Assembly: GCF_016403105.1 (NCBI RefSeq)
Contig: NZ_CP046155.1
Location: 806,001 to 870,000, forward strand
Origin: Leptolyngbya sp. BL0902
GTDB lineage: Bacteria; Cyanobacteriota; Cyanobacteriia; Phormidesmidales; Phormidesmidaceae
Direction of reading: 5' to 3'
Length of the DNA: 64,000 bases
Part shown: positions 49,047 through 64,000 of the stretch, piece by piece
Numbering within the stretch: position 1 is the first letter of the stretch
Layout of the letters: each line of letters starts with the position of its first letter
The notes under the pieces: generated by a model
Told to the model about the DNA's origin: nothing
Seen by the model: only the letters and a program-made list of their open reading frames with translations
The model's database searches: none
Position numbers and translations under genes: made by a program

Positions 49047-51151
49047 TTGCTCAACGCCTTACGGCATCAGAGGTTCGGCACATCCTTGGTTGTTGTTGCG
49101 GATGATGGCAGTGTTGCGTGCTCAACGCCTTACGGCATCAGAGGTTCGGCACATCAAATTGCTGAACCAAACGCGGGACATGGAGGCGTGCTCAACGCCT
49201 TACGGCATCAGAGGTTCGGCACAGGGCCACATCCTCGGGGCATTTATTCGGCGTGGTGTGCTCAACGCCTTACGGCATCAGAGGTTCGGCACATTCAAGA
49301 CCTGGGCAGCGCCAACGGCACCTGGCTGTGCTCAACGCCTTACGGCATCAGAGGTTCGGCACTAGCTCCATGCGGATGACTGGGTAAAAGAGTCGCTGAG
49401 TGCTCAACGCCTTACGGCATCAGAGGTTCGGCACCAACTGCTGAAATTGACCTTTAGAAGCCCGCATATGTGCTCAACGCCTTACGGCATCAGAGGTTCG
49501 GCACCAGATGTGCCCCTAAACCGCTGCCAGCCAGAAGAAGGTGCTCAACGCCTTACGGCATCAGAGGTTCGGCACCCCCGCCATCGGGCCGAGGTAGGTC
49601 AACTTGCACGTGCTCAACGCCTTACGGCATCAGAGGTTCGGCACTTCCAGTTCGCCTTTGCCCTACGCCTGAGCATCCGCAAGTGCTCAACGCCTTACGG
49701 CATCAGAGGTTCGGCACAGTCGCTCAAGTGGGCCTGCCTACGCCAATCCATACAGTGCTCAACGCCTTACGGCATCAGAGGTTCGGCACTCTAACGCCTG
49801 CTGCACCAGTTGGGCTACCTCACTGTGCTCAACGCCTTACGGCATCAGAGGTTCGGCACGAGCGGATCCACTCGTCTTTATGCCTGTCTAACAAGTGCTC
49901 AACGCCTTACGGCATCAGAGGTTCGGCACACTGTACCTAACGGCCAATGTGGTGATTGACGCGGAGTGCTCAACGCCTTACGGCATCAGAGGTTCGGCAC
50001 TTGCCGTTCGAGCACTGGCCCCGCTAACCCCAACCCAAGACGTCCGTGCTCAACGCCTTACGGCATCAGAGGTTCGGCACTACCCACAGAATGACCACTA
50101 ATTAAAAGTTGCCTAAGTGCTCAACGCCTTACGGCATCAGAGGTTCGGCACCACAAACGTCTAGGTTGTTTCTTATCCCTTATGTGTACGTGCTCAACGC
50201 CTTACGGCATCAGAGGTTCGGCACGGCTCAATGATGTCTCTGGCATGAGTCCAATTTTGTGCTCAACGCCTTACGGCATCAGAGGTTCGGCACCCTAAAC
50301 TTCGAGATGTCCAGTACCAAACGTCCGAGTGCTCAACGCCTTACGGCATCAGAGGTTCGGCACTTGTTCGTTTCTCTGGTTGTTTTTTGGTTTCTGATGT
50401 GCTCAACGCCTTACGGCATCAGAGGTTCGGCACCTTGACCTTAAACGTATGGAATATGACTTCTTCCCTGTGCTCAACGCCTTACGGCATCAGAGGTTCG
50501 GCACGGGTACTTGGTTGTTACGGATGATTTTTCTTGTTTGTGCTCAACGCCTTACGGCATCAGAGGTTCGGCACGGCTCACTCACAAACCAGGTCGGCTC
50601 GAAGTAGGTGTGCTCAACGCCTTACGGCATCAGAGGTTCGGCACCCAATCCTCATCTGGCGGGAACTTTACCCCACCATTGGCCAGTGCTCAACGCCTTA
50701 CGGCATCAGAGGTTCGGCACTGCCAGGAATGCCTAGGGTGAGGGTGCCTGTTGCGTGCTCAACGCCTTACGGCATCAGAGGTTCGGCACAGTTGTGTCAT
50801 TGATGCTGACGGAAGTGATCCTATGTGCTCAACGCCTTACGGCATCAGAGGTTCGGCACTTACAAGTGTTTTACAACTAAGTGAAAGAGAGGGTAATCGG
50901 TGCTCAACGCCTTACGGCATCAGAGGTTCGGCACTTCGGGCCGCAGCCTGCGCTGTTCGTCTGCGGCGTCGCGTGCTCAACGCCTTACGGCATCAGAGGT
51001 TCGGCACTCCCTCCTACAAATCAGCCCAAACCTGCCTGCGCCGCGTGCTCAACGCCTTACGGCATCAGAGGTTCGGCACTGATCGGCAGGCTGCCCACTT
51101 GCGATATCACGATAGCGTGCTCAACGCCTTACGGCATCAGAGGTTCGGCAC
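49047..51151 (-). CRISPR. CRISPR array, 30 repeats of 35 bp and 29 spacers
   Basis: Plus-strand repeat begins GTGCTCAACGCC and ends GGTTCGGCAC (35 bp). Repeats start at 49047, 49118, 49188, 49258, 49328 and so on to 51117. By eye all are identical except the first, which has T at position 1. Spacers are mostly 34-38 bp; outliers are 45 (50001-50045), 41 (50645-50685) and 40. On the minus strand the hairpin TGCC-GTAA-GGCG sits directly before an 8-nt 3' end TTGAGCAC, the classic Cas6 product handle. So transcription is probably leftward, from the cas2 side, with the altered repeat at the trailer end. Confidence 0.98.
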
Positions 51152-51400: not shown

Positions 51401-51694
51401 TCAGAAGATCTGGTGTAGGTTGTGATCCACATCCCAAGCTTCGGGCCGATTACAAGCCTCGATACGCTGTACGCACCGCTGGCATAGGCCAGCAATCAAT
51501 AAACTATCCTCCTCAGCAAGGACTTCTTCAAGCTTCCATCGCAATTGCTCTCGATCCCGTTGACTTAGGCGACAGCGAAAGATAGAGAACTGAATACTCT
51601 CGCCATAACCCTTCAGCAGCTTATAGGCTTTCCGCCAGCGTTTAGGGTCGCGGATGTCGTAGCAGATGAGGTAGTAATTCTTGCTTTCTGCCAT
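51401..51694 (-). CDS. cas2: CRISPR-associated endonuclease Cas2
   Basis: 97 residues, MAESKNYYLICYDIRDPKRWRKAYKLLKGYGESIQFSIFRCRLSQRDREQLRWKLEEVL. The YDIRDPKRW motif holds the metal Asp. Cas2 dimer bridges Cas1 dimers in spacer integration. It is separated from cas4-cas1 by 4 bp. Confidence 0.97.
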   Translation of the reverse strand: MAESKNYYLICYDIRDPKRWRKAYKLLKGYGESIQFSIFRCRLSQRDREQLRWKLEEVLAEEDSLLIAGLCQRCVQRIEACNRPEAWDVDHNLHQIF

Positions 51695-51698
51695 GTCA

Positions 51699-53366
51699 CT
51701 ACCTCACTACCAACTGAGCGAACAAACCACCCTCACCCATCCACTCCTTCTCCAGTAGCCTTACCTCCAGTTCAATGAGGCGGCGATAGGTGAGGGAATA
51801 TTGTGTAACCGGATGTTTCCATTGCTCTTCCTTGCGGCGTTCGTACAGGCTAATGAACTTGCGGCGACCTGCATCACTTAGCCATACTTGATCCCGCTGC
51901 ACGTTGAAATCTTCATCCACATCCCACTGGTTGCGATTTACAGAGGCCATGACGGGCATATCCACCAGGGGCACCCGAAAAATCTCCATTAGGTCGAGGG
52001 CCAAGGGTGGAGCTTGGGTGCGGGGTTGGTGATAGAACCCTAGGGCTGGCTCCAGACCAACGGTGAGAATGGCATTCATCACATCCTTCAGCAGCATAGA
52101 GTAGCCAAAGCTCAGCAGAGCGTTAAAACGATCCTTGGGTGGCCGTCGATTGCGTCCAGAGAACTTCATCCCTAGGGCCACATTATCTGAGATGAGGTGG
52201 GGGAGAGCTCCAAAGTAGAGGGCGGCCAAATTGCCCTCCAGTCCCAGGAGAGATGCCGTAGATTGGGCCGTAGATACCCCCTTCAGTGTCCTTTGCATCT
52301 GAGCAATCGTCTGCTCCAGGGCTTCCCTGTGCTCATCAGCGTTGCGCTGGCCCCGCATCAGAAACTTACGCTGGCTTTGGCCACGGCACTCCACAAGCTG
52401 CTTAGCGAGCTTGAGGCATTGCTCAGAGTCCGTTAGAGCCTTGTACTGCTGAATGCGGCGCTGGATGCTGCCCTGACGAGTATCCAAACTACCTAGGTAG
52501 CGTCCACCCCCAGAGATGAAATGAACCCCCACCTCCTGCTCAGCACAGAAGTAAATCGCCTGGGTAGATAACTGAGCAAAGCTGTGGACCACCAATTGGC
52601 TCACCTGCCGGGAAGGAAGCGTCACCACCTGGCCATCCCGCTTCGTGATTTTGAACTGGTCGCCGCTTTTGCCGATTCGAGTCCCTGCCTCAGTCACATG
52701 AATGACCTGGCGCTCATCGTCTTCAGGAAACAGCCGCACCACCTGCTCTGTAGTCCCCTGGGCCAACCGAGTCTCTTCAGGTAGACAAACTGGGGAGAGA
52801 GAACATCGGCCACATAGACGCTCGTTGGTGGCTACTGGAGGCCGCTCTGAGGACATCCGTAGTTGTCTAGCCTTATCAATGCAGTTGAGCACGTCCTGTC
52901 GTCCCTGGTCGTCGAGGGGCACATGAACTAGGACATTATCAGCATGGTAGCGAACCCGCCCCTCTGGCACGATAATTCCCAACTCAGCCTCAATGAGCAA
53001 GGCATAGGCCAAGACTTGAATGCGATCACTCTCCCAGGCTTGGGGCTTATTGTTGCTGTCTCGGTAGCAGCGGCCTCGCTTATGCTCGTAGGGAATTGTT
53101 TGGCCCCCACGGGTACGGAGAGCGTCAACTTTGCCGCGTAACCCTAGTTTCTCGCTCTCCAGAACAAACTGTTGCCAGTCGCCATCTTCATCTTTCTCAA
53201 GCTCCACATGAAGCCGCCGCCCCGCAAAGACAGAAGCATCCTGGGTATAGAGTTGTTCAACTTCTTCAAGGTAGTAAAGCCGTGGGCAATAATTCAGTGC
53301 ATGGAGCGCATTAACACGAATTGTTTCTTGAGACTCTACCAAAGCCTCAGTGGAAGTGATAGTCAT
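51699..53366 (-). CDS. cas4-cas1: Cas4-Cas1 fusion
   Basis: 555 residues. Cas4 part (about 1-205): first Cys in LNYCPRLYYLEE, nuclease core YEHKRGRCYRDS and the C-terminal cluster CGRCSLSPVC (Fe-S ligands). Cas1 part (about 215-555): GNLAALYF (metal Glu), a His in YHQPRTQAPPLALDLMEIFR with the following Asp/Glu. Fused Cas4-Cas1 selects PAM-bearing prespacers and integrates them; it is typical of MYXAN/type I-B and I-G relatives. The start is at 53366 after a 253-bp gap holding a solo degenerate repeat. Confidence 0.96.
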   Translation of the reverse strand: MTITSTEALVESQETIRVNALHALNYCPRLYYLEEVEQLYTQDASVFAGRRLHVELEKDEDGDWQQFVLESEKLGLRGKVDALRTRGGQTIPYEHKRGRCYRDSNNKPQAWESDRIQVLAYALLIEAELGIIVPEGRVRYHADNVLVHVPLDDQGRQDVLNCIDKARQLRMSSERPPVATNERLCGRCSLSPVCLPEETRLAQGTTEQVVRLFPEDDERQVIHVTEAGTRIGKSGDQFKITKRDGQVVTLPSRQVSQLVVHSFAQLSTQAIYFCAEQEVGVHFISGGGRYLGSLDTRQGSIQRRIQQYKALTDSEQCLKLAKQLVECRGQSQRKFLMRGQRNADEHREALEQTIAQMQRTLKGVSTAQSTASLLGLEGNLAALYFGALPHLISDNVALGMKFSGRNRRPPKDRFNALLSFGYSMLLKDVMNAILTVGLEPALGFYHQPRTQAPPLALDLMEIFRVPLVDMPVMASVNRNQWDVDEDFNVQRDQVWLSDAGRRKFISLYERRKEEQWKHPVTQYSLTYRRLIELEVRLLEKEWMGEGGLFAQLVVR

Positions 53367-53619: not shown

Positions 53620-54291
53620 TCAGGTTTTCTTTCGTAGCTGCTTACCCTTTTGAGAACTTAAAACAGCTTTCAAAGGGGTAGGTATTTTTGTGAAACAATC
53701 TACCTGAAACTCATCACTCCAACTAAAGCGTTGAAAGGTTCCCTGCCCTGTCTTCCGATCAATCCATATAGGAAGGCTAATTAAACCACGATTATCTCTC
53801 ACTAGCCAGCGAACTGTACCATCTGTTTCTCGATACAAGCGGATACCATTGATCATCGCCCAAGATTCGCCTAGGCTCAGACCTCCAAAACGAGTAATTT
53901 GGGATGGAGTAGCAAGGGCAATTTCTACTCGGTCTGCTAGTTTTATCGTTGCTGTCTCTTCACTGGAGTCAACTTGAACGGCTATTCTCAAGTCAGTTAG
54001 AAGCTCCTGATGGTTAGGCTTTGAGAACTTACTAGTGGGATAGGTGCCCATGTGAGTCTTGCTAAACTTGTGATGACGCTGTTTCCTCACAATGCGAGAA
54101 ATGGGCGGATCATCACCAATGATGCCCAAAGCTAGTTTGACTCCTCGATGGGCTTCCATATTTACCTCGCCAATTAGCGAAAGCAGCAGCCCATAGACAG
54201 TTGACGGTGGTGGATAGAGATAGGTTTCCTTATAATCCCGTGCAAAGCTTCGAGGGAAGCTAGTGCAGGGACAATCGAGGTACAACTGCAT
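53620..54291 (-). CDS. cas5: Cas5 (DevS/Cmx5-like)
   Basis: 223 residues, MQLYLDCPCTSFPRSFARDYKETYLYPPPSTVYGLLLSLIGEVN. The N-terminal RAMP strand and the YPPPSTVYGLLLSLIGE motif are Cas5 hallmarks; LSLGESWAMINGIRL follows. It caps the crRNA 5' handle in Cascade. Its ATG overlaps the cas7 stop by one base. Confidence 0.93.
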   Translation of the reverse strand: MQLYLDCPCTSFPRSFARDYKETYLYPPPSTVYGLLLSLIGEVNMEAHRGVKLALGIIGDDPPISRIVRKQRHHKFSKTHMGTYPTSKFSKPNHQELLTDLRIAVQVDSSEETATIKLADRVEIALATPSQITRFGGLSLGESWAMINGIRLYRETDGTVRWLVRDNRGLISLPIWIDRKTGQGTFQRFSWSDEFQVDCFTKIPTPLKAVLSSQKGKQLRKKT

Positions 54292-55166
54292 TAGGCCGTT
54301 ACCTCCACCTTGAGTAGTGCTTTAGCAGTGGTGATCGCTTCTTTAACGCTACGGAAAACCCCAACGCCCAATTCCCCTAACTTCTCTCCATAGGGTGTAT
54401 CAGCAATTTCACCAGCGACAATCAATTCATTAGCAGCCACATCACCGACTTCAACCAACCTAAGAAGTTTAGGGCAACCTACTGCATCACCCATGCGTTT
54501 GAAGCTATCCATAATCCAGGGACTTGGATCATTGGTGACACGAATAACAATAGATTCTGGGTGAAAGTCGTATAGGAATCGTGAGTGATTACCACCAACA
54601 TGACGCACCGCCGCAATTGCATCCAAGGCTAAGGCAGCACGGGCAGGATTCTTCAAGTGCTCTGGGGTAAGGGCCACGGTGTACTGATAAGCCGTACAGT
54701 GAACCTCGGTTTGGTGAATAGAGGTTTTACCTTTCTCACCGCCTTTAGACCCAAAGGCAATGTCTCCCCAGTAAGGATCGAGACTAATAGCCCGACTAAT
54801 TTCTAAAGCACCTCGCCGTTTGGTGGTAGCATCCTCATTATCTTTGCCCTTTTTGGCGTCCATATAGCCAAACAAATCATCATCAATGTAGTCTTCGGCA
54901 CTAAAACGTTCATCTTTGAAGCTGTACTTATCTGTATCTGGGTTAAAGGTGCGATTCGTTACCGACTCGTTGTGATGTTGAAAATATTCGCGTAAGCCCC
55001 AACGAATAGCTTCAGCACTAATAGTCGTGTATTGATCGTTACCACGGGTAATCTTTTGCAGAGTGGAAAGGGTGCTACCGTCCCCTTCTCCTCGGTTATT
55101 GGCGGCTACAGCGGTAGCTGTGACGATAGTAGCGAAAAGATGTTGAGTCATTGTTGAGTGCTCCAA
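54291..55166 (-). CDS. cas7: Cas7 (DevR/Csa2-like)
   Basis: 291 residues. MTQHLFATIVTATAVAANNRGEGDGSTLSTLQKITRGNDQYTTISAEAIRWGLREYF matches the DevR/Csa2 Cas7 family. VRHVGGNHSRFLYDF is also typical. Several copies line the crRNA backbone. Start at 55166 or three codons later. It follows cas8 after 19 bp. Confidence 0.95.
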   Translation of the reverse strand: MEHSTMTQHLFATIVTATAVAANNRGEGDGSTLSTLQKITRGNDQYTTISAEAIRWGLREYFQHHNESVTNRTFNPDTDKYSFKDERFSAEDYIDDDLFGYMDAKKGKDNEDATTKRRGALEISRAISLDPYWGDIAFGSKGGEKGKTSIHQTEVHCTAYQYTVALTPEHLKNPARAALALDAIAAVRHVGGNHSRFLYDFHPESIVIRVTNDPSPWIMDSFKRMGDAVGCPKLLRLVEVGDVAANELIVAGEIADTPYGEKLGELGVGVFRSVKEAITTAKALLKVEVTA

Positions 55167-55185: not shown

Positions 55186-56667
55186 TTAAAGGACGTTAGC
55201 TGTTTCTTCAGTAGAGTTTTCCTCTAGTAGCTTTTTTTCCTCCTTGGTTTTACTTTGATAGGTTGCGATTGCAAGCAAGGCTAAATCTCTAGCAGTTTTC
55301 CAGTTTCCCGGTTGATTTAGCCTTGCAAAGATTTGTAAGCCATTACCCAGTGCTGCTCCACTCCGAAAATCACTTAAGAATTTCACCAATGCAGTCGTGA
55401 ACTGTTGCTGTGTTCCAGGTCGCTGTAGCCGATAAATAACCTTATCGGTAACTTGTCCGTAGTCTAAAGGTCTGCCTTGTTTCTGTGCTTGCAAAATCTG
55501 CTCTCGTAAGTAAGTGCTAAAGGCACCTTGAACAGCCTCAAAGAGTACTTTCTCATCTGCGCTTAGATGTTCAGTCATTACAACTAATCCCCTGCGATCA
55601 TCTGGAAAAATAGAATTTGCCTTGCGAAACTCGAAAAATCCGTCATACCATGACTTGTTGACGATTAAGTTGTCACTAATCCAGGCTAAAACTTTGGACT
55701 CTGCTAACCATGTCCCGTTACCATCCTTTTTAAGCTGTACTCTGGGAGGTAAGAGCCTAGAAGCAACCTCATACAGTCCTAAAATCTGATCATTGATCTG
55801 TACTCGGTGTACAGCTTGCTTGAGATAGGATTGATTACCATCCCAAGGCTGGCTACCTAGACGGTATACCTCGCAATAATCGATACGAAACAAACTTGAG
55901 TCATCTGCTAACTTCTCTCGCAACAGGAAATTTAGGGCTGATTCCCCTGCACTGCTAGAGCGGAAGCTTTTATAGGTGCGTCCCGGCATCTTGCGGCGTA
56001 ACTTAACCCATTCGTTGATATTGCGAATTTCAGGAATAACCAATGCTGAGCGATAGCCAGTTAATTGATAATAGCCGCAAGCAAGCGGCAAAAATAGTAA
56101 AGCTAAAAAGCCTGTGGGAGATTCAACATAAGCTCCGTTAACAAAACACTCAACCAATCCAGGAAGGTGATGCCCTTTCAAAGGAATTTCCTTTTTGAAC
56201 ATTCCCTTGCTATTAAAAGCATCTTGAATACCACGGGTGTAGTAGCAATCCACTACTGGACGATAATCAATCCGAATTTCAGGCTGATCATCGTCAACGG
56301 TAAAGTTCAGGGGTACAGCTTGCTTTTCACGACTGCGCTGCTTGCTGTGCTGCAAGAATGAGTTCATCACCCCTTCACTAAAGATGTAGCGCCCCTGCTC
56401 ATCTAGATTCAGTGCGGGTGCTTCTAAATAGCCTTCATCAGAACGATAGGTCTGTGCTAAGAGCCATTGAATAGCATCTATGTCTTTGCCCTCCCAGGAT
56501 AGGGTTACAACATCTTCTGTAACCTCCCACTGTAAAGGAGCATCGGTAGAATCGATAGCTGATAGTGCAAGCCCTAACCCAGCGATTCCGGCTCGATGCG
56601 GTAGTAGTGTGTTGGGGTCAAAAATGGAGAGTGTCAGTTCAGTCAATTCAGTTACCTCCTTCCTCAT
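55186..56667 (-). CDS. cas8: Cas8 (Cmx8/MYXAN-type large subunit)
   Basis: 493 residues. Start MRKEVTELTELTLSIFDPNTLLPHRAGIAGLGLALSAID; later VDCYYTRGIQDAF and PTGFLALLFLPLACGYYQLTG. Position between cas7 and the small gene, length and the LLPHRAGIAGL start fit the Cmx8 group, the large subunit that reads the PAM. Assignment rests on context plus this pattern. It overlaps the 91-residue gene by 20 bp. Confidence 0.88.
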   Translation of the reverse strand: MRKEVTELTELTLSIFDPNTLLPHRAGIAGLGLALSAIDSTDAPLQWEVTEDVVTLSWEGKDIDAIQWLLAQTYRSDEGYLEAPALNLDEQGRYIFSEGVMNSFLQHSKQRSREKQAVPLNFTVDDDQPEIRIDYRPVVDCYYTRGIQDAFNSKGMFKKEIPLKGHHLPGLVECFVNGAYVESPTGFLALLFLPLACGYYQLTGYRSALVIPEIRNINEWVKLRRKMPGRTYKSFRSSSAGESALNFLLREKLADDSSLFRIDYCEVYRLGSQPWDGNQSYLKQAVHRVQINDQILGLYEVASRLLPPRVQLKKDGNGTWLAESKVLAWISDNLIVNKSWYDGFFEFRKANSIFPDDRRGLVVMTEHLSADEKVLFEAVQGAFSTYLREQILQAQKQGRPLDYGQVTDKVIYRLQRPGTQQQFTTALVKFLSDFRSGAALGNGLQIFARLNQPGNWKTARDLALLAIATYQSKTKEEKKLLEENSTEETANVL

Positions 56668-56923
56668 ACTCCCAAATGCGCCAGTAGTCTCTGTGATTTA
56701 CCTGTTCAATAAACTCAATCCGTACTCGCCCTTTGCCGTGAGGAAGGTTGTAATCGAGGCAGGAAAGCTTCTTGGCACGACGCAAAGCACTTTCTGGGAT
56801 GCCTTCACGAATTGCAGATTTTGTTGTTATCCCTCTGGGCTTTAGTCCCAGGAAGGGTAGTCGCTGCGCTTTTTCCAACTCAGCAGTGGCATAACCTAGC
56901 AGGGTCAGTTGCTCAGCAGTCAT
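56648..56923 (-). CDS. Uncharacterised 91-residue protein in the cas operon
   Basis: MTAEQLTLLGYATAELEKAQRLPFLGLKPRGITTKSAIREGIPESALRRAKKLSCLDYNLPHGKGRVRIEFIEQVNHRDYWRIWEYEEGGN. The first half is basic and may hold an HTH-like turn; the C-terminal half is beta-rich (GRVRIEFIEQVNHRDYWRIWEYE). GAGG lies eight bases before the ATG. It is the first gene after the mini-CRISPR and putative internal promoter and overlaps cas8, so it is likely co-translated with it. It could be a Cascade small subunit, a regulator or an anti-CRISPR-like protein; I do not recognise it. Confidence 0.7.
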   Translation of the reverse strand: MTAEQLTLLGYATAELEKAQRLPFLGLKPRGITTKSAIREGIPESALRRAKKLSCLDYNLPHGKGRVRIEFIEQVNHRDYWRIWEYEEGGN

Positions 56924-56950
56924 GGGGAACCTCGCAGTAAGTCATCCTCC

Positions 56951-56986
56951 ATAATATAGCCCATCATCAGAGTGAGTTGTCTACAT
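56951..56986 (-). promoter_or_regulatory. Putative cas8-operon promoter overlapped by mini-CRISPR target site
   Basis: Minus strand: TAGACA (56983-56978) as -35-like and TATATT (56958-56953) as -10-like, 19 bp apart, about 30 bp before the ATG at 56923. The ten bases TAGACAACTC (56983-56974) preceded by ATG (56986-56984) match the pseudo-spacer seed except at position 6. Confidence 0.6.
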
Positions 56987-57009: not shown

Positions 57010-57046
57010 AGCCAGCCTCATGGAGGGGATTCCTCAAAGGCTGGCT
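57010..57046 (-). promoter_or_regulatory. Strong hairpin after the mini-CRISPR
   Basis: Perfect 9-bp stem AGCCAGCCT (57010-57018) / AGGCTGGCT (57038-57046) with an inner GAGG/CCTC pair. It lies directly downstream of the second pseudo-repeat on the minus strand, followed by ATCTTTAG, so it may end the crRNA-like transcript or the cas6-cas3 mRNA. Confidence 0.65.
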
Positions 57047-57049
57047 TGG

Positions 57050-57155
57050 TCGTGCAACGCCTTGCGGCATCAGTGGTTGGCTCCAACTTCTGTAGTTTTA
57101 CTACAGAGCAGAGTGGTCTAGTGCTCAACGCCTTATGGAGCATCTGAGAGGGACA
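57050..57155 (-). ncRNA. Degenerate mini-CRISPR (CreR/CreA-like crRNA gene)
   Basis: On the minus strand the first pseudo-repeat (57155-57121) keeps AAGGCGTTGAGCAC, including the complete 8-nt handle. A 36-nt pseudo-spacer follows (57120-57085). The second pseudo-repeat (57084-57050) matches 25 of 35 bases and keeps hairpin TGCCGCAAGGCG but has a damaged end. This would give one crRNA-like RNA. The pseudo-spacer includes an 8-bp inverted repeat TCTGTAGT/ACTACAGA. Known CreR/CreA RNAs in type I systems have such structure and location. That it is transcribed is inference. Confidence 0.8.
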
Positions 57156-57163
57156 CTGATACA

Positions 57164-59401
57164 TCATACCGATCTCCTTGCTAGTTCATAGGCACCAATT
57201 TCTGATGAATAGCCCCATGACTCCGCAGGGGCTACCGGATAGCGTCTGCATTTTTGCCAGCCTTTGGTTTGCTGGTTTCTAACCACTAAGGGAACCGTGT
57301 ACCGAGGAATCAGCTTGGCAGGCAATTTTTCAACGGTTGGGACATCCCGCTCCAGTAAAACGGTGGTGGTGTAACCTGCCTCCCGTAAAGAGGTTGGGTA
57401 GGTACGCCACTCACCATCGAGCCAAACCGAGTTGCGATCCGGTTGTCCTTGAGTAGCTGCCTTTTCGAGCCAAGATGCCAGATCAGCTTGGCAAACCTCG
57501 CCAGCAAAGCTCTGAACTAATTCGAGGCCAGCCTCCAAGTCTTCTTGCTCGTAGGGAAAGCCAACTTTTTCATCGGGGTAGAACAGGGCATCAAGGGCAT
57601 GGCCGCAGTATTGGCGATTCAATCGACCCAGGCGCTGCACTAAGCCTGGTGGATCGGCAATTTGAGTTACGAGTAAGGTTGCAGACAGATCCAATGACAT
57701 CTCAGCTACCTGGGTGGCAACTGCCATCACTGGGCCATCAGTCTTAAAACGGTCAACGACCTCTCGGTGGTGCTGGACGCGATCACCATATTTATAACGG
57801 CTGTGATAAAGCAACGGGCTTAGCCCAATCTTTTTAGCATTTTGGTAAACGTCAATAGCTGTGTTGACCTGATTACAAACCCACAGAATTTTGCCTCCTG
57901 CCTCATATTCAGCCTTCACCCGTTCCCAATTGGGTGCATCGGCATAGTGAAAGCGGTAACGGGGCTGGGTTTCAAGATCCTTTGGCCCGTGAATAACATC
58001 TAAGGGTGCGCCTACCGCTTGCTCAATGGCCTGTAGCTGCCAGGGTAAGAACGACGCTGACATGAGTAAGATTGGTGCTTTAACTACCTCCAGGAACCGC
58101 AAAAGTGCCCCAAAAAGCTTGTTGTCATAGCAGTGGACTTCATCAAATACAAAGGCTGCTTGGGCAATTGCAGGAAAGCAATACAGAGGACGGCGGTTAC
58201 ATTGCAGCAGTCCTAAAACTGTATCTACGGTACAAATACTGACCTTAGTGCTCCAGGCTTTGAACGATTCCAGTTTGGTTTCCAGGTCGTCATCATCTCC
58301 GGTTGAGTGCAGGTCTAAATGCTCCAAGTCAACTGCTGCACGAGTGTGGACCAGCGTTGAATCCACTTTGTCGTAGACATAATCTAAAAAGCCTTCGGTA
58401 CTGGTTCCCGTCGTCGGATAGCAGAAGAATAGCTTGCGCCCGATGGCATGGCGTTTGGCCCAATTGTAAGCACCCAGGGTTTTCCCTGTTCCACACCCTG
58501 CCCGTGCAAGCGTCACTCGTTGTTCTGCTTTACCCAAATTCTCCTGAAAAGGACGTAGGGAATTACCCTCCAATCGTTCCGCTACCACATGCTGTAGTTC
58601 AGTTTCAGTCAAGGTATACCGAATTTGTTGCTCAATCCAGTCACGAATCGAAACATCGTTTGCGGGTAACGCTGAACCACTGGTGTCTCCTGCCACCAAT
58701 AGGGCTTTAACAACCGCTGTGAAGACTGGATCAGTGTCCCATTCGACAAATTCCCTAATCAGTGTTTTCTGCTTTTGCTTGAGGTCTGTGATTGTCCAAT
58801 GTGTAGGTAAGTTATTGGGCAAAGATAGGTTCAATCCACATAATTTCTGGCCGTACTTTAGTAGCCCGATAAAGTGTTTATGGGTGGTGTAGAGCCATAG
58901 GAGATCGCCCCTTGTCCATTGATCACAGCCAGAGTTACGGATGACTCCAATCTCATCGGTTTGCTTACCTGCTTCGCCACCCAGCTTGAAATGGTGTCCA
59001 CCAGCCGCTGCTAGAGCCACATAAAAATTTCCCTGACCAGTTGAAAGCCAGTCCCGCATTTCCCAAGCCAACAAAACTGATATCACTTCATGCCGCATCA
59101 ACTGCGGGTTATTCATTGGATTCTTAAACTTGCGTACTACAGCCTGGAAGTGATCATTTGCCTTGCCTAAATCATGTAGAAACGCTGCCAGTTGAACTGT
59201 CGCCTTTAGTTCTTCAAGACTTTGAGATAAGCCAAACTGTTGCAGGCAACCAATACCTAGCTCATCAACCAGTGTAGTGACAGCTTCGACGACATCAGAG
59301 GTATGGCCTGTTAGCCCATAGGCAGACTTCCAGGGCTTATCCATCGACTTCGCTAGGAGTAACTTAGGCCGTAAGGCTGGCTTCTCAGGCAGCATACGCA
59401 T
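57164..59401 (-). CDS. cas3: Cas3 HD nuclease-helicase
   Basis: 745 residues. HD nuclease: GHTSDVV, LAAFLHDLGKANDHF, AAGGHHFKLGG. Helicase: Walker A AGCGTGKTLGAY, DEVH in FVFDEVHCYDN, LMSASFLPWQL, and motif VI GLVQRLGRLNRQYCG. It degrades target DNA after Cascade recruitment. The gene starts 17 bp inside the cas6 3' end. Confidence 0.96.
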   Translation of the reverse strand: MRMLPEKPALRPKLLLAKSMDKPWKSAYGLTGHTSDVVEAVTTLVDELGIGCLQQFGLSQSLEELKATVQLAAFLHDLGKANDHFQAVVRKFKNPMNNPQLMRHEVISVLLAWEMRDWLSTGQGNFYVALAAAGGHHFKLGGEAGKQTDEIGVIRNSGCDQWTRGDLLWLYTTHKHFIGLLKYGQKLCGLNLSLPNNLPTHWTITDLKQKQKTLIREFVEWDTDPVFTAVVKALLVAGDTSGSALPANDVSIRDWIEQQIRYTLTETELQHVVAERLEGNSLRPFQENLGKAEQRVTLARAGCGTGKTLGAYNWAKRHAIGRKLFFCYPTTGTSTEGFLDYVYDKVDSTLVHTRAAVDLEHLDLHSTGDDDDLETKLESFKAWSTKVSICTVDTVLGLLQCNRRPLYCFPAIAQAAFVFDEVHCYDNKLFGALLRFLEVVKAPILLMSASFLPWQLQAIEQAVGAPLDVIHGPKDLETQPRYRFHYADAPNWERVKAEYEAGGKILWVCNQVNTAIDVYQNAKKIGLSPLLYHSRYKYGDRVQHHREVVDRFKTDGPVMAVATQVAEMSLDLSATLLVTQIADPPGLVQRLGRLNRQYCGHALDALFYPDEKVGFPYEQEDLEAGLELVQSFAGEVCQADLASWLEKAATQGQPDRNSVWLDGEWRTYPTSLREAGYTTTVLLERDVPTVEKLPAKLIPRYTVPLVVRNQQTKGWQKCRRYPVAPAESWGYSSEIGAYELARRSV

Positions 59402-60086
59402 CTTCCTTTAGTGGATAAAACCAACCACAACCAAAGTGCTTTCGTCCACCTAAGCCATGCCACTGTAATATAAGTGAGTCTTCATTACTCAAACCCTCAA
59501 CTACGACACTAAATCCTAAAACCTTCTTATCTTTTATTTGCAGAGTTCGTCGAGCTAAATCGCCATCAGGATCGCTAGGAATAAATACTTGTCCTTTAAG
59601 ACCAAGACGATCTAACCCATTCTGACAAGATTGCAGAAAGTATCGAGGTACTTCTGCATGATCAATTTCTTTTAGCTTAAACGTCACAAGTCGCGACTTT
59701 AAAGTATCACTGGCTTCTGGCAAAGTAATCCTAGGCTGAATCAGTCGAATAAGATGTCCGCGAATATCCAAAACCTGATTTTGCAGGAAGCGATACCAAG
59801 TCTGCACCTGATCAGCCGGACAACGAAGTCGCAAGGATGAGCTTTGATTTAAATAAATCATGCCAGCATGATCAGGAATACCTGAAATTGTGCATAGATG
59901 TAAATCGTCTGGCAAGTCTTTAGGCATGGATGCATCTTCAACCGCTTGGAGACTTTTTTTCACTGCTGAGTAAAGCGCGTAGCCATGATCCGCAGGGAGC
60001 GTTTTACCCCTCAGAGCAAATTGAATTTCGAGAAAGTCCATATTTTCCCCCCTGTGTTGCACTTCTAAGCATGAGCAATTACTCAT
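59385..60086 (-). CDS. cas6: Cas6 crRNA-processing endoribonuclease (Cmx6-like)
   Basis: 233 residues, MSNCSCLEVQHRGENMDFLEIQFALRGKTLPADHGYALYSAVKKSL; M16 (MDFLEIQFALRG) is an alternative start. RAMP-like strands and the C-terminal Gly-rich loop HGLGGRKHFGCGWFYPL identify Cas6. It cuts the repeat at the hairpin base to leave the 8-nt handle. It overlaps the WYL gene by 8 bp. Confidence 0.92.
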   Translation of the reverse strand: MSNCSCLEVQHRGENMDFLEIQFALRGKTLPADHGYALYSAVKKSLQAVEDASMPKDLPDDLHLCTISGIPDHAGMIYLNQSSSLRLRCPADQVQTWYRFLQNQVLDIRGHLIRLIQPRITLPEASDTLKSRLVTFKLKEIDHAEVPRYFLQSCQNGLDRLGLKGQVFIPSDPDGDLARRTLQIKDKKVLGFSVVVEGLSNEDSLILQWHGLGGRKHFGCGWFYPLKEDAYAA

Positions 60087-61068
60087 TAGACTTGGAAGAG
60101 TTCAAATAATTATAGTTCATTAGTTCTATTTCCTCCTTCATCACTGTGACTAACTCCGGTGGCTCCAACACTCTTGCCCCTCTCCCATAGCCCAACACCC
60201 ACCGCTTCACATCATTAATGCCCCTTACTACAATCTGAAGCGTCACCGCCCCGTCCTCGTGCTCCTCTAGCTCTTGGGTAGGATGCCAGCGACGTTCCCG
60301 GATGTAGGGGGCGGTCTTGGCATCAAACCAAATTCGTACCGTGACTGGGACACCCCCCACCTCATGCTGGAAAATCATCTCCAGGTGATCCTTGGCATTG
60401 AAGTCCGGCTTGCGCTCAAAGCTATCCTCCAGCAGCTTTAGCTCGCGAATCCGGTCTACCCGGAACCAACGCACCTCATCCCGTTTGTGGCACCAGCCAA
60501 TGACGTAGGGGTTCGTGCCCCGGTAGATGTGCAGTAGGTATGGGTCTAGCACCCGCTCGGAGGTGGCGTTACGGCTGGCGGTGTAGTAGCTCATCCACAC
60601 CTGCTTCGATTCCCGACACGCTTCCTCTAGCTGCTGCCAAACGTCCAAATTCAGATTGGTTTCCGCCCCAGAACGAAAAACCAGGCGATCCTCAGCAATC
60701 TGTTGGAAATCTAGCCAGGTTTGTTCTGGTAGCCGCTCGGTTAATCGGGTGATGGCTGACCGCAGATCCAGGGCATAGGCCGACCCGGCACAGGCTTCCA
60801 GCATCCTAGCCCCCAAGGTGAGGGCAAAAAGTTCCCCTTTGGTGAGTTGGACGGTTGGAAGTCGCCAGGTCGGTTCTGTGTAGTGGTAGCCGTGGGTACG
60901 GTGAAATTTCACGGGCGCATGGAACCGATCCCGCATAAAGGCAATGTCATCGCGAATCGTGCGCTCACTCACCTCCAGCACATCCGCCAACGCTTGAGCC
61001 GTCTGCCGTTCAGGCTTACGGATTAGCTCATCAATTTTCAGTAGTCGCTCTAGTTGAATGCGCGACAT
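60079..61068 (-). CDS. WYL-domain transcriptional regulator
   Basis: 329 residues. N-terminal HTH (RQTAQALADVLEVSERTIRDDIAFMRDR), then a WYL domain (VWMSYYTASRNATSERVLDPYLLHIYRGTNPYVIGWCHKRDEVRWFRVDRI) and a WCX-like C-terminus. WYL proteins bind ligands or nucleic acid and often repress defence operons; in Synechocystis a WYL protein controls a CRISPR locus. Being first in the operon, it likely autoregulates cas6-cas3. Confidence 0.93.
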   Translation of the reverse strand: MSRIQLERLLKIDELIRKPERQTAQALADVLEVSERTIRDDIAFMRDRFHAPVKFHRTHGYHYTEPTWRLPTVQLTKGELFALTLGARMLEACAGSAYALDLRSAITRLTERLPEQTWLDFQQIAEDRLVFRSGAETNLNLDVWQQLEEACRESKQVWMSYYTASRNATSERVLDPYLLHIYRGTNPYVIGWCHKRDEVRWFRVDRIRELKLLEDSFERKPDFNAKDHLEMIFQHEVGGVPVTVRIWFDAKTAPYIRERRWHPTQELEEHEDGAVTLQIVVRGINDVKRWVLGYGRGARVLEPPELVTVMKEEIELMNYNYLNSSKSNE

Positions 61069-62362: not shown

Positions 62363-64000
62363 ATGAAACATCTGCTCCTCTCTGCCCCGTTGCTTCTACT
62401 TCTGAATGCCCCGGCGCTGGCTTCCCAGGGCCACATCTACCGAGACAGCGACGGGGCCATATCGGTCTACCGCCTAGCACCCAACGCCCAGGTGAGAATC
62501 GGCATTGACACCCCACCCAGCCGTACCCTCACCTCTAATCCCTGTGGCCTCCTGGTGGTGAGCGCATCGGAGAACTACCCAACCGCCACCATTCAAGTCA
62601 ATGGGGCCACCATCAACCCCGCTAGCCTACCGACACAGATCCGGCCCACCTGTCGGCAACGGAGCGGTGGCCATGGTCTTGACGAGGAACGACCTCAACA
62701 CTTCAAAACCCAGGATGGCGATATTGTCGTCGTTGGCAACCCGCCCAATACCCGCTATGAAGTCACCTATCCAGGGCAGCTTCGGATTCTGAGCCGTCGC
62801 GTCAATGACTGTGGCTTTCTGAGAATCCGGGAAACACAGACCATCAACTTCAACCAAAGCATCCTGCTACCCACCACCTCCGTCGAAACCTACGCCGAAT
62901 TTCAGGTGAGCCAAATCCCAGAGACTCGGCCTTTGCTCTGCTATCGCGGGAACCTCTACTATCCCCAGCCTTGGGTTGATATCTTTGCCCCCGCCATCCC
63001 TGGTACTAACCTTCCGGCCACCGTAGTCAATACGACCCGTACCATCACGAGCGCCATCACCACCGCTGGGAGTGGAGGCACCACTGGGGGAAGTTCCACC
63101 GGAACAGGGGGCGGCAGTGGCTCAACGGGAGGATCTGGTACTACAGGGGGCAGTGGGAGCGGTTCTAGCGGCACGGGAGATGGATCTAGTGGAGGCTCCA
63201 CAGGCGGATCGACAGGAGGCTCCACCGATGGATCCACGGGCGGCTCCACGGGCGGCTCCACGGGCGGTTCAACAGGTGGCTCTAGCGGTGGTAGCTCTAC
63301 CGATGGATCCACGGGCGGTTCAACAGGTGGCTCTAGCGGTGGTAGCTCTACCGATGGATCCACGGGCGGTTCAACAGGTGGCTCTAGCGGTGGTAGCTCT
63401 ACCGATGGATCCACGGGCGGCTCCACGGGCGGATCGACGGGGGGTGCAGACGGCTCCACTGGGGGCTCGACGGATGGCTCTGGAGGTTCTACGGGCGGAT
63501 CCACAGATGGCTCCACGGGCGGATCTGGGGACTCCACAGGCGGGACGGGGGGCGGTTCGACGGGGGGCTCTACAGATGGCTCTGGAGGTTCTACGGGGGG
63601 CGGCTCGACAGGGGGAGGCTCCACGGGTGGGACGGGTGGCGGCACAGCGGCCATGAATGACTTCACCCTAGCCACCTATAACCCAACCATCCATGACTTC
63701 AATGGTGATGGCCAGGTAGACGACAGCAACGGCGATGGTATTCCCGATGACCGAGATGGGGATGGCTTTCCCGATGGGCCTTGGGGGCCAGGAGATATGC
63801 CCCGTTCCGCAGGGCCAGGGTTTACCGTGCCCACCAATGCCGAGGTTTGCATAGCCTACAACGGCAACATTGTGGCGTCCTCCTATGGCTTCATTCGCGG
63901 CTATAGTTACGGTCTATCCGCCGATGATGGCCTAGCCCCCATCTCCAATGACAATCCACTGTTCACTGCGGCCAATGCTGGATCGCTCTCTGGGCCTCCA
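62363..64000 (+). CDS. Large exported Gly/Ser/Thr-repeat protein, 3' end outside window
   Basis: At least 545 codons from MKHLLLSAPLLLLLNAPALA (signal peptide). The N-terminal about 215 residues hold repeat units like the previous gene (SNPCGLLVVSASENYP, NDCGFLRIRETQ). A tract of about 195 Gly/Ser/Thr-rich residues follows, with a perfect 51-bp (17-residue) unit repeated three times at 63250-63420. After that comes DFNGDGQVDDSNGDGIPDDRDGDGFPDG, a calcium-binding thrombospondin-3/dockerin-like series, and a further domain to the edge. Probably a cell-surface or secreted adhesin-like protein. Confidence 0.75.
   Translation, partial: MKHLLLSAPLLLLLNAPALASQGHIYRDSDGAISVYRLAPNAQVRIGIDTPPSRTLTSNPCGLLVVSASENYPTATIQVNGATINPASLPTQIRPTCRQRSGGHGLDEERPQHFKTQDGDIVVVGNPPNTRYEVTYPGQLRILSRRVNDCGFLRIRETQTINFNQSILLPTTSVETYAEFQVSQIPETRPLLCYRGNLYYPQPWVDIFAPAIPGTNLPATVVNTTRTITSAITTAGSGGTTGGSSTGTGGGSGSTGGSGTTGGSGSGSSGTGDGSSGGSTGGSTGGSTDGSTGGSTGGSTGGSTGGSSGGSSTDGSTGGSTGGSSGGSSTDGSTGGSTGGSSGGSSTDGSTGGSTGGSTGGADGSTGGSTDGSGGSTGGSTDGSTGGSGDSTGGTGGGSTGGSTDGSGGSTGGGSTGGGSTGGTGGGTAAMNDFTLATYNPTIHDFNGDGQVDDSNGDGIPDDRDGDGFPDGPWGPGDMPRSAGPGFTVPTNAEVCIAYNGNIVASSYGFIRGYSYGLSADDGLAPISNDNPLFTAANAGSLSGPP

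Follow-up and report, generated by a model that had tools for sequence, protein, structure and literature searches.

In a window of 64,000 nucleotides from Leptolyngbya sp. BL0902 (the whole stretch of DNA that was analysed), a mini-CRISPR of two degenerate repeats lies on the minus strand of the cas operon, between cas3 (57164-59401) and an ORF of 91 amino acids, orf91 (56648-56923), and probably serves as a regulatory, crRNA-like guide of CreR/CreA type. This reading, first put forward in an earlier note on the same DNA, gained support from the recurrence of the first pseudo-repeat in 9/9 loci with a cas3-cas8 gap and from an ATG-flanked seed target placed before the downstream cas genes. 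Judged from sequence alone, guide-based CRISPR self-control is indicated in cyanobacterial I-MYXAN systems at two operon positions, and the R-loop pairing rule is visible in natural variation.

The mini-CRISPR and its putative target in the window

The features of the locus are the following, in the order of transcription.

60079-61068, minus strand: WYL-domain regulator
59385-60086, minus strand: cas6/cmx6, expected processor of the RNA
57164-59401, minus strand: cas3
57121-57156, minus strand: pseudo-repeat 1 (psiR1), with an intact 8-nt 5' handle, TTGAGCAC
57085-57120, minus strand: pseudo-spacer, exactly 36 nt, seed TAGACCACTC
57050-57084, minus strand: pseudo-repeat 2 (psiR2), Cas6 hairpin present, handle gone, 25/35 to the array repeat
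57010-57046, minus strand: terminator-like stem-loop between the mini-CRISPR and its target
56984-56986, minus strand: putative PAM of the self-target, ATG
56948-56983, minus strand: target protospacer TAGACAACTC..., matching spacer positions 1-5 and 7-10
56648-56923, minus strand: orf91, encoding a small protein of family A, first gene to follow the target
55186-56667, minus strand: cas8 (Cas8a1/Cmx1), longest frame
54291-55166, minus strand: cas7/devR
53620-54291, minus strand: cas5/devS
51699-53366, minus strand: cas4-cas1 fusion
51401-51694, minus strand: cas2
49047-51151, minus strand: CRISPR array, 30 repeats, repeat GTGCCGAACCTCTGATGCCGTAAGGCGTTGAGCAC

The NCBIfam curated models for Cas6, Cas8, Cas5 and Cas1 agreed in assigning the system to I-MYXAN, in keeping with the earlier description of the locus as MYXAN-like. 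Comparison with relatives showed that the true start of cas8 is likely a TTG at 56646, one base past the orf91 stop.

The architecture described in the earlier note was recovered in full. The minus strand carries the two pseudo-repeats in the interval from cas3 to the 91-residue gene, and they are separated by exactly 36 bp (57120-57085). The upstream copy, said to keep a full handle, does so in psiR1, which is 36 nt long and needs small gaps for its alignment to the 35-nt array repeat, and whose last 15 nt (TAAGGCGTTGAGCAC) are identical to that repeat. The downstream copy, described as having a hairpin without a handle and a 25/35 match, was reproduced as psiR2, which reaches 25/35 in an ungapped alignment and retains CTGATGCC-GCAA-GGCGTTG. 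In Markov-1 randomised windows (n=60), the highest agreement of any 35-mer with the repeat was 20-23/35, compared with 25/35 for psiR2; the pseudo-repeats are beyond chance. The pseudo-spacer, as also proposed, does fold on itself. An ATGATG that overlaps the stop codon of cas3 begins a short frame across the mini-CRISPR (57167-57120 in the window, and in relatives). A coding role for this frame was unsupported (dN/dS 0.81), and the ATGATG may be the vestige of a coupled start.

The pseudo-spacer starts at its 5' end with TAGAC-C-ACTC, and ATG-TAGAC-A-ACTC is found on the same strand at 56986-56974. The protospacer begins 60 bp and finishes 25 bp upstream of orf91, which itself precedes cas8-cas7-cas5-cas4/1-cas2. 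Pairing in the window is minimal (9/10, with position 11 mismatched and nothing from position 11 onward), and a possible continuation, seen by eye, is one base out of register. The exact ATG+TAGACnACTC pattern occurs a single time in the 4.7-Mb genome, at the site upstream of orf91, and 12 further places carry it with one mismatch. Since the count at one mismatch or fewer is 13 places for the pattern and 9 for the reversed control, it is the exact ATG-seed match alone that stands out.

The ATG at the self-target fits the AYG PAM of a type I-MYXAN Cascade, which was measured as the preferred PAM of the Synechocystis PCC 6714 MYXAN Cascade in the available part of PMC11096372. Protospacers of the window array, and likewise those of a second array, were not found in phages, and those of the window array were found in just three plasmid records, at or beside MYXAN arrays of their own. 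The array protospacers were thus uninformative, so that the support for the PAM comes from published work and from the elements. Elsewhere in the window, positions 63167-63642 hold a long imperfect tandem repeat whose units include ones of 12 and 15 bases.

A -10-like TATATT was seen by eye inside the protospacer (56953-56958), and a strict sigma-70 promoter scan listed nothing in the target region. The stem-loop segment has a folding energy of -25.7 kcal/mol, below 300/300 mononucleotide shuffles, and a strict terminator scan did not list 57010-57046. Similar stem-loops are present in three other genomes (G061, G197 and G058), and none was found in G096.

The orf91 gene is under purifying selection (dN/dS 0.13 against G061). 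It had no protein-family match in the family libraries searched, and the six small proteins submitted to such searches gave no match at a curated cut-off, the hits of the proteins other than orf91 being below cut-offs or at E >0.001. No KilA-N domain was returned in any of these searches. A single-sequence model of orf91 has two helices and strands, with a mean pLDDT of 72 and residues 1-26 mostly below 50; a PDB fold search with this single-sequence model gave nothing at E 0.001 (best 0.18).

Recurrence at two operon positions

Cas8 was detected in 57 of the 388 class genomes (E 1e-20). We compared 43 loci, made up of 38 places from the Cas8 search, four plasmids and the window, while 17 further, distant places from the search were fetched and judged separately. 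The cas3-cas8 junction could be judged in 40 of the 43 loci, those of G085, G037 and NC_014534 being unjudgeable. The gap between the two genes was 349-670 bp in nine of these 40 loci (the class above 200 bp, here called gapped) and at most 36 bp in the other 31.

Conservation of both pseudo-repeats in such gaps, the check that the earlier note had asked for, was observed: the scan found psiR1 in 9/9 gapped loci, and a second pseudo-repeat was present in 8/9, by scan in G000, G061, G096 and G280 and by eye in G137, G071, G065 and G197, and was gone in G099. An ATG-flanked target of at least 8/10 was located in the same gap in 8/9 gapped loci, G065 and G096 having two targets in tandem. In G099, psiR1 is present, the target is absent and the small gene is broken. 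Comparison of G000 and G061, which are close relatives and not independent, showed a joint change at positions 2-3, with TAGAC/TCTAC in the spacers and TAGAC/TCTAC in the targets.

An element with a target was found in just two of the 31 ungapped loci (G313 and Nostoc MS1), and most compared systems appear to do without the element, as far as the scans see. The locus of G185, 87% identical in Cas8, has no cas3-cas8 gap. No relatives were found among viral contigs.

The small-protein search led blind to one more locus, G058, which took no part in building any model. It is a MYXAN system of the Cmx8 type with the element at the cas3-cas8 junction, and its pairing is 10/10, the only mismatches in the first 17 positions being at 6 and 12. 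A cas3-cmx8 gap alone is not predictive of the element, because four Cmx8 loci with such a gap (G068, G186, G233 and G309) had no pseudo-repeat by scan. The cas3-cmx8 gaps of L101, L102, L104 and L110 contain other insertions without pseudo-repeats.

The small genes associated with the junction fall into two families. Family A is found in G000, G061, G096, G197 (where it carries a stop codon) and G058, and is broken in the target-less G099; in all five loci with a target, the target is on the same strand. Family B is found in G137, G071, G065 and G280, with the target on the opposite strand in 4/4 loci. Among the 388 genomes, family A was detected in eight (five model sources, G058, and weak matches in G124 and G233, the latter with a gap that has no pseudo-repeat) and family B in four, all with the element, these four being the model sources themselves.

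The second position is upstream of cas6. Elements were found there in the distant MYXAN loci of Nostoc sp. MS1, G313, G212, G131, G218, G067 and G144, close to the cas6 start in G147, and upstream of hicBA-cas6 in PCC 6714, and these nine loci have ATG-flanked seed targets. The PCC 6714 element is on plasmid pSYLB (L136, 5099-5230) and is of the same kind, with its target upstream of the HicBA toxin-antitoxin pair that precedes cas6. Elements at this position occur in loci in which family A or B was not found. We found no element at this position in L123 and L135 (distant and cas3-bearing, with upstream sequence available) or in L130-L134 (in which cas3 was undetected); L120, L121, L125 and L127 come without sequence upstream of cas6.

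A WYL match was obtained in 29 of the 43 compared loci. The loci L045, L083, L119, L122, L124, L126, L128 and L129, which have the element upstream of cas6, had no WYL gene there, and L119 had one weak match elsewhere. Solo pseudo-repeats were also seen in the cas5-cas1 gap of L061 (10366), L072 (10310), L079 (10166), L083 (10557), L045 (9042), L121 (3480), L123 (10827), L126 (12739) and L127 (4984). None of these nine had an ATG-flanked target of at least 8/10.

Seed pairing and the readings it allows

The results of our seed scoring showed that 11 of 12 elements tested score 8-10 behind an ATG. When the PAM requirement was removed, a best seed match was ATG-flanked in the same 11/12 elements, tied best matches not being separated. 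With 736 array spacers as controls, 0-3 per region reached the observed score in the 11 elements, and 0 or 1 per region scored at least 9 behind an ATG over the 12 regions. Among 34 isolated handles, 16 scored 8-10/10, none scored 7 and the other 18 scored at most 6; a score of 8 or more came up in 22 of the 3,400 random draws.

We then profiled 18 spacer-target pairs, from eight gapped cas3-cas8 loci, G058 and the nine loci of the second operon position; the target-less G099 was excluded, and one of the two tandem targets was used for each of G065 and G096. The pairs were chosen for an ATG and a seed of at least 8/10, ties being settled by total match. Positions 1-5 match in 17-18 pairs and positions 7-11 in 14-17, while positions 6, 12 and 18 match in 6/18, 6/18 and 4/18, respectively, and positions 13-17 match in 11-15 each (66/90 in total). 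Because positions 6, 12 and 13-18 lie outside the threshold and enter only through tie-breaking, this periodicity counts largely as independent support for a type I R-loop, and pairing at 13-17 with interruptions at 6, 12 and 18 is, as read from these alignments, the footprint of such an R-loop. The direct pairs carry the pattern; G071 alone of the four family B pairs is mismatched at position 6.

The guide would act as follows. Transcription of WYL-cas6-cas3 would enter the mini-CRISPR and probably end at the stem-loop behind it. Cas6 would cut both pseudo-repeats and release one RNA, with a predicted start of TTGAGCACTAGACCACTC, in which the pseudo-spacer is flanked by the TTGAGCAC handle and the psiR2 hairpin. 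Cascade loaded with this RNA would bind the ATG-flanked seed target upstream of orf91, where the sequence match is observed, and the DNA would be covered and left uncut because pairing is limited to the seed. Bound Cascade would shut the promoter of orf91-cas8-cas7-cas5-cas4/1-cas2, giving a negative feedback in which sufficient Cascade silences its own genes, and the genes would switch on when Cascade is consumed by array crRNAs or by an anti-CRISPR. In such a circuit orf91 would be a co-regulated small protein. In the window a single base separates orf91 from the likely cas8 start, so that repression at the target would be expected to extend to cas8 and what follows it, which favours feedback on Cascade; tuning of Cascade expression is accordingly the favoured function over restraint of a harmful small protein.

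That the repeats are the relic of a decayed array, kept by chance, is scarcely credible: they are degenerate and G099 looks decayed, but the parts preserved are the handle and the hairpin, differing spacers pair with their own targets, and spacers and targets co-vary. It is very improbable that the element is an RNA structure, a terminator or attenuator in which the match serves RNA folding instead of guiding. Family B does offer such a competing reason for the match, since its targets are on the opposite strand, so that within a single RNA the 5' portion of the pseudo-spacer pairs with the target copy further downstream and forms a long spacer-target hairpin, in 4/4 loci. However, 14 of the 18 pairs are direct, not inverted, and therefore allow no pairing in the transcript; the pair set skips positions 6, 12 and 18, and the preference for an ATG persists when none is required. 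Counter-points to a guide are the minimal pairing of the window, the strict promoter and terminator scans that listed nothing there, the missing target and broken small gene of G099, the missing stem-loop of G096, the match at position 6 in 3/4 family B pairs and the apparent lack of the element in most compared systems.

The association with two small-protein families leaves room for a guard function like that of CrePA or CreTA, in which the guide serves to silence the small protein (A or B), a product that is toxic or arrests growth is freed when Cascade is lost or inhibited, and cas8 is affected only secondarily. We consider this possible but rather unlikely. A single gap of 349-670 bp accommodates guide, target and small ORF; every family B genome has the element, although these are the model sources, as does G058 beyond the five sources of family A and its two weak matches; the targets keep to one strand in five family A loci and to the other in 4/4 family B loci; the module is patchy, being missing from the ungapped G185; and a CrePA with a protein toxin is described in the accessible portion of PMC12737573. 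Against these stand the lack of a toxin-family match or KilA-N domain in orf91 and the other small proteins searched, the pairing of G197, still 10/10 with a stop codon in its family A gene, the small gene of the window, which is not set apart from cas8, and the elements upstream of cas6 in loci where neither family was found. A wider proposal, which we hold to be doubtful, sees families A and B as novel types of small protein silenced by Cascade. Each would move as a compact module together with its guide and target, insert at cas3-cas8 in various subtypes of MYXAN and become active once Cascade is disabled; a single guide would then both tune Cascade and arm an anti-anti-CRISPR response. The two families are candidate Cascade-controlled effectors.

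Comparison with known systems

CreR was reportedly described by Liu et al. in 2023 as a crRNA-like regulator of cas operons. According to PMC12737573, such regulators are general to type I systems and are generally uncoupled from a toxin gene. The window resembles it (PMC12948488, PMC12737573) in having a mini-CRISPR beside the cas genes with partial complementarity to the putative promoter region of the cognate cas genes: we found a crRNA-like gene with pseudo-repeats near cas and a PAM-flanked partial seed match before the cognate cas genes. Cascade-dependent repression is in the window an expectation from its sequence. The window differs from CreR in its cas3-cas8 position, its cyanobacterial I-MYXAN system and the small-protein gene between target and cas8.

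The haloarchaeal CreA requires pairing at positions 1-5 and 7-11 and leaves 6 and 12 free, and its first repeat gives the 5' handle and its second the 3' hairpin (PMC8501985, in part); likewise, the 5' handle is preserved in psiR1 and the 3' hairpin in psiR2. Haloarchaeal type I-B CreTA shares two degenerate repeats, a 1-5/7-11 seed and a PAM (excerpts of PMC8501985 and PMC9458426), and the window has two divergent pseudo-repeats around a pseudo-spacer and pairing by seed and PAM (9/10, position 11 mismatched). The same excerpts place the creTA of H. hispanica between cas6 and cas8, in a stretch with a strong promoter for the downstream cas genes (PMC8501985, PMC9458426). In contrast to CreTA, the window has ATG instead of TTC as the PAM and a conserved protein gene (dN/dS 0.13) instead of a known RNA toxin, although an overlapping toxic RNA may exist at orf91. 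CrePA, like the window, has a protein gene under a crRNA-like guide, and its CreP typically carries a KilA-N domain (PMC12737573, available text), whereas orf91 and family B match no family; that no KilA-N protein toxin was found in the window weakens only the claim of membership.

Among the matches listed, in open-licence papers, none described an element of this kind from cyanobacteria or MYXAN systems, and the word CreR is absent from the available text of PMC11096372; the guide element is apparently undescribed for cyanobacterial I-MYXAN, with priority uncertain. Among the closest known systems is also the type I-B (Myxan) Cascade of Synechocystis sp. PCC 6714, which shares the MYXAN kind with the window and has Cmx8 as its large subunit, according to the sections of PMC11096372 at hand. 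Plasmid pSYLB of PCC 6714 holds a cmx8 MYXAN locus that is most likely the source of that Cascade. As this plasmid carries one instance of the element and the Cascade has been purified and solved (PMC11096372), binding is directly testable.
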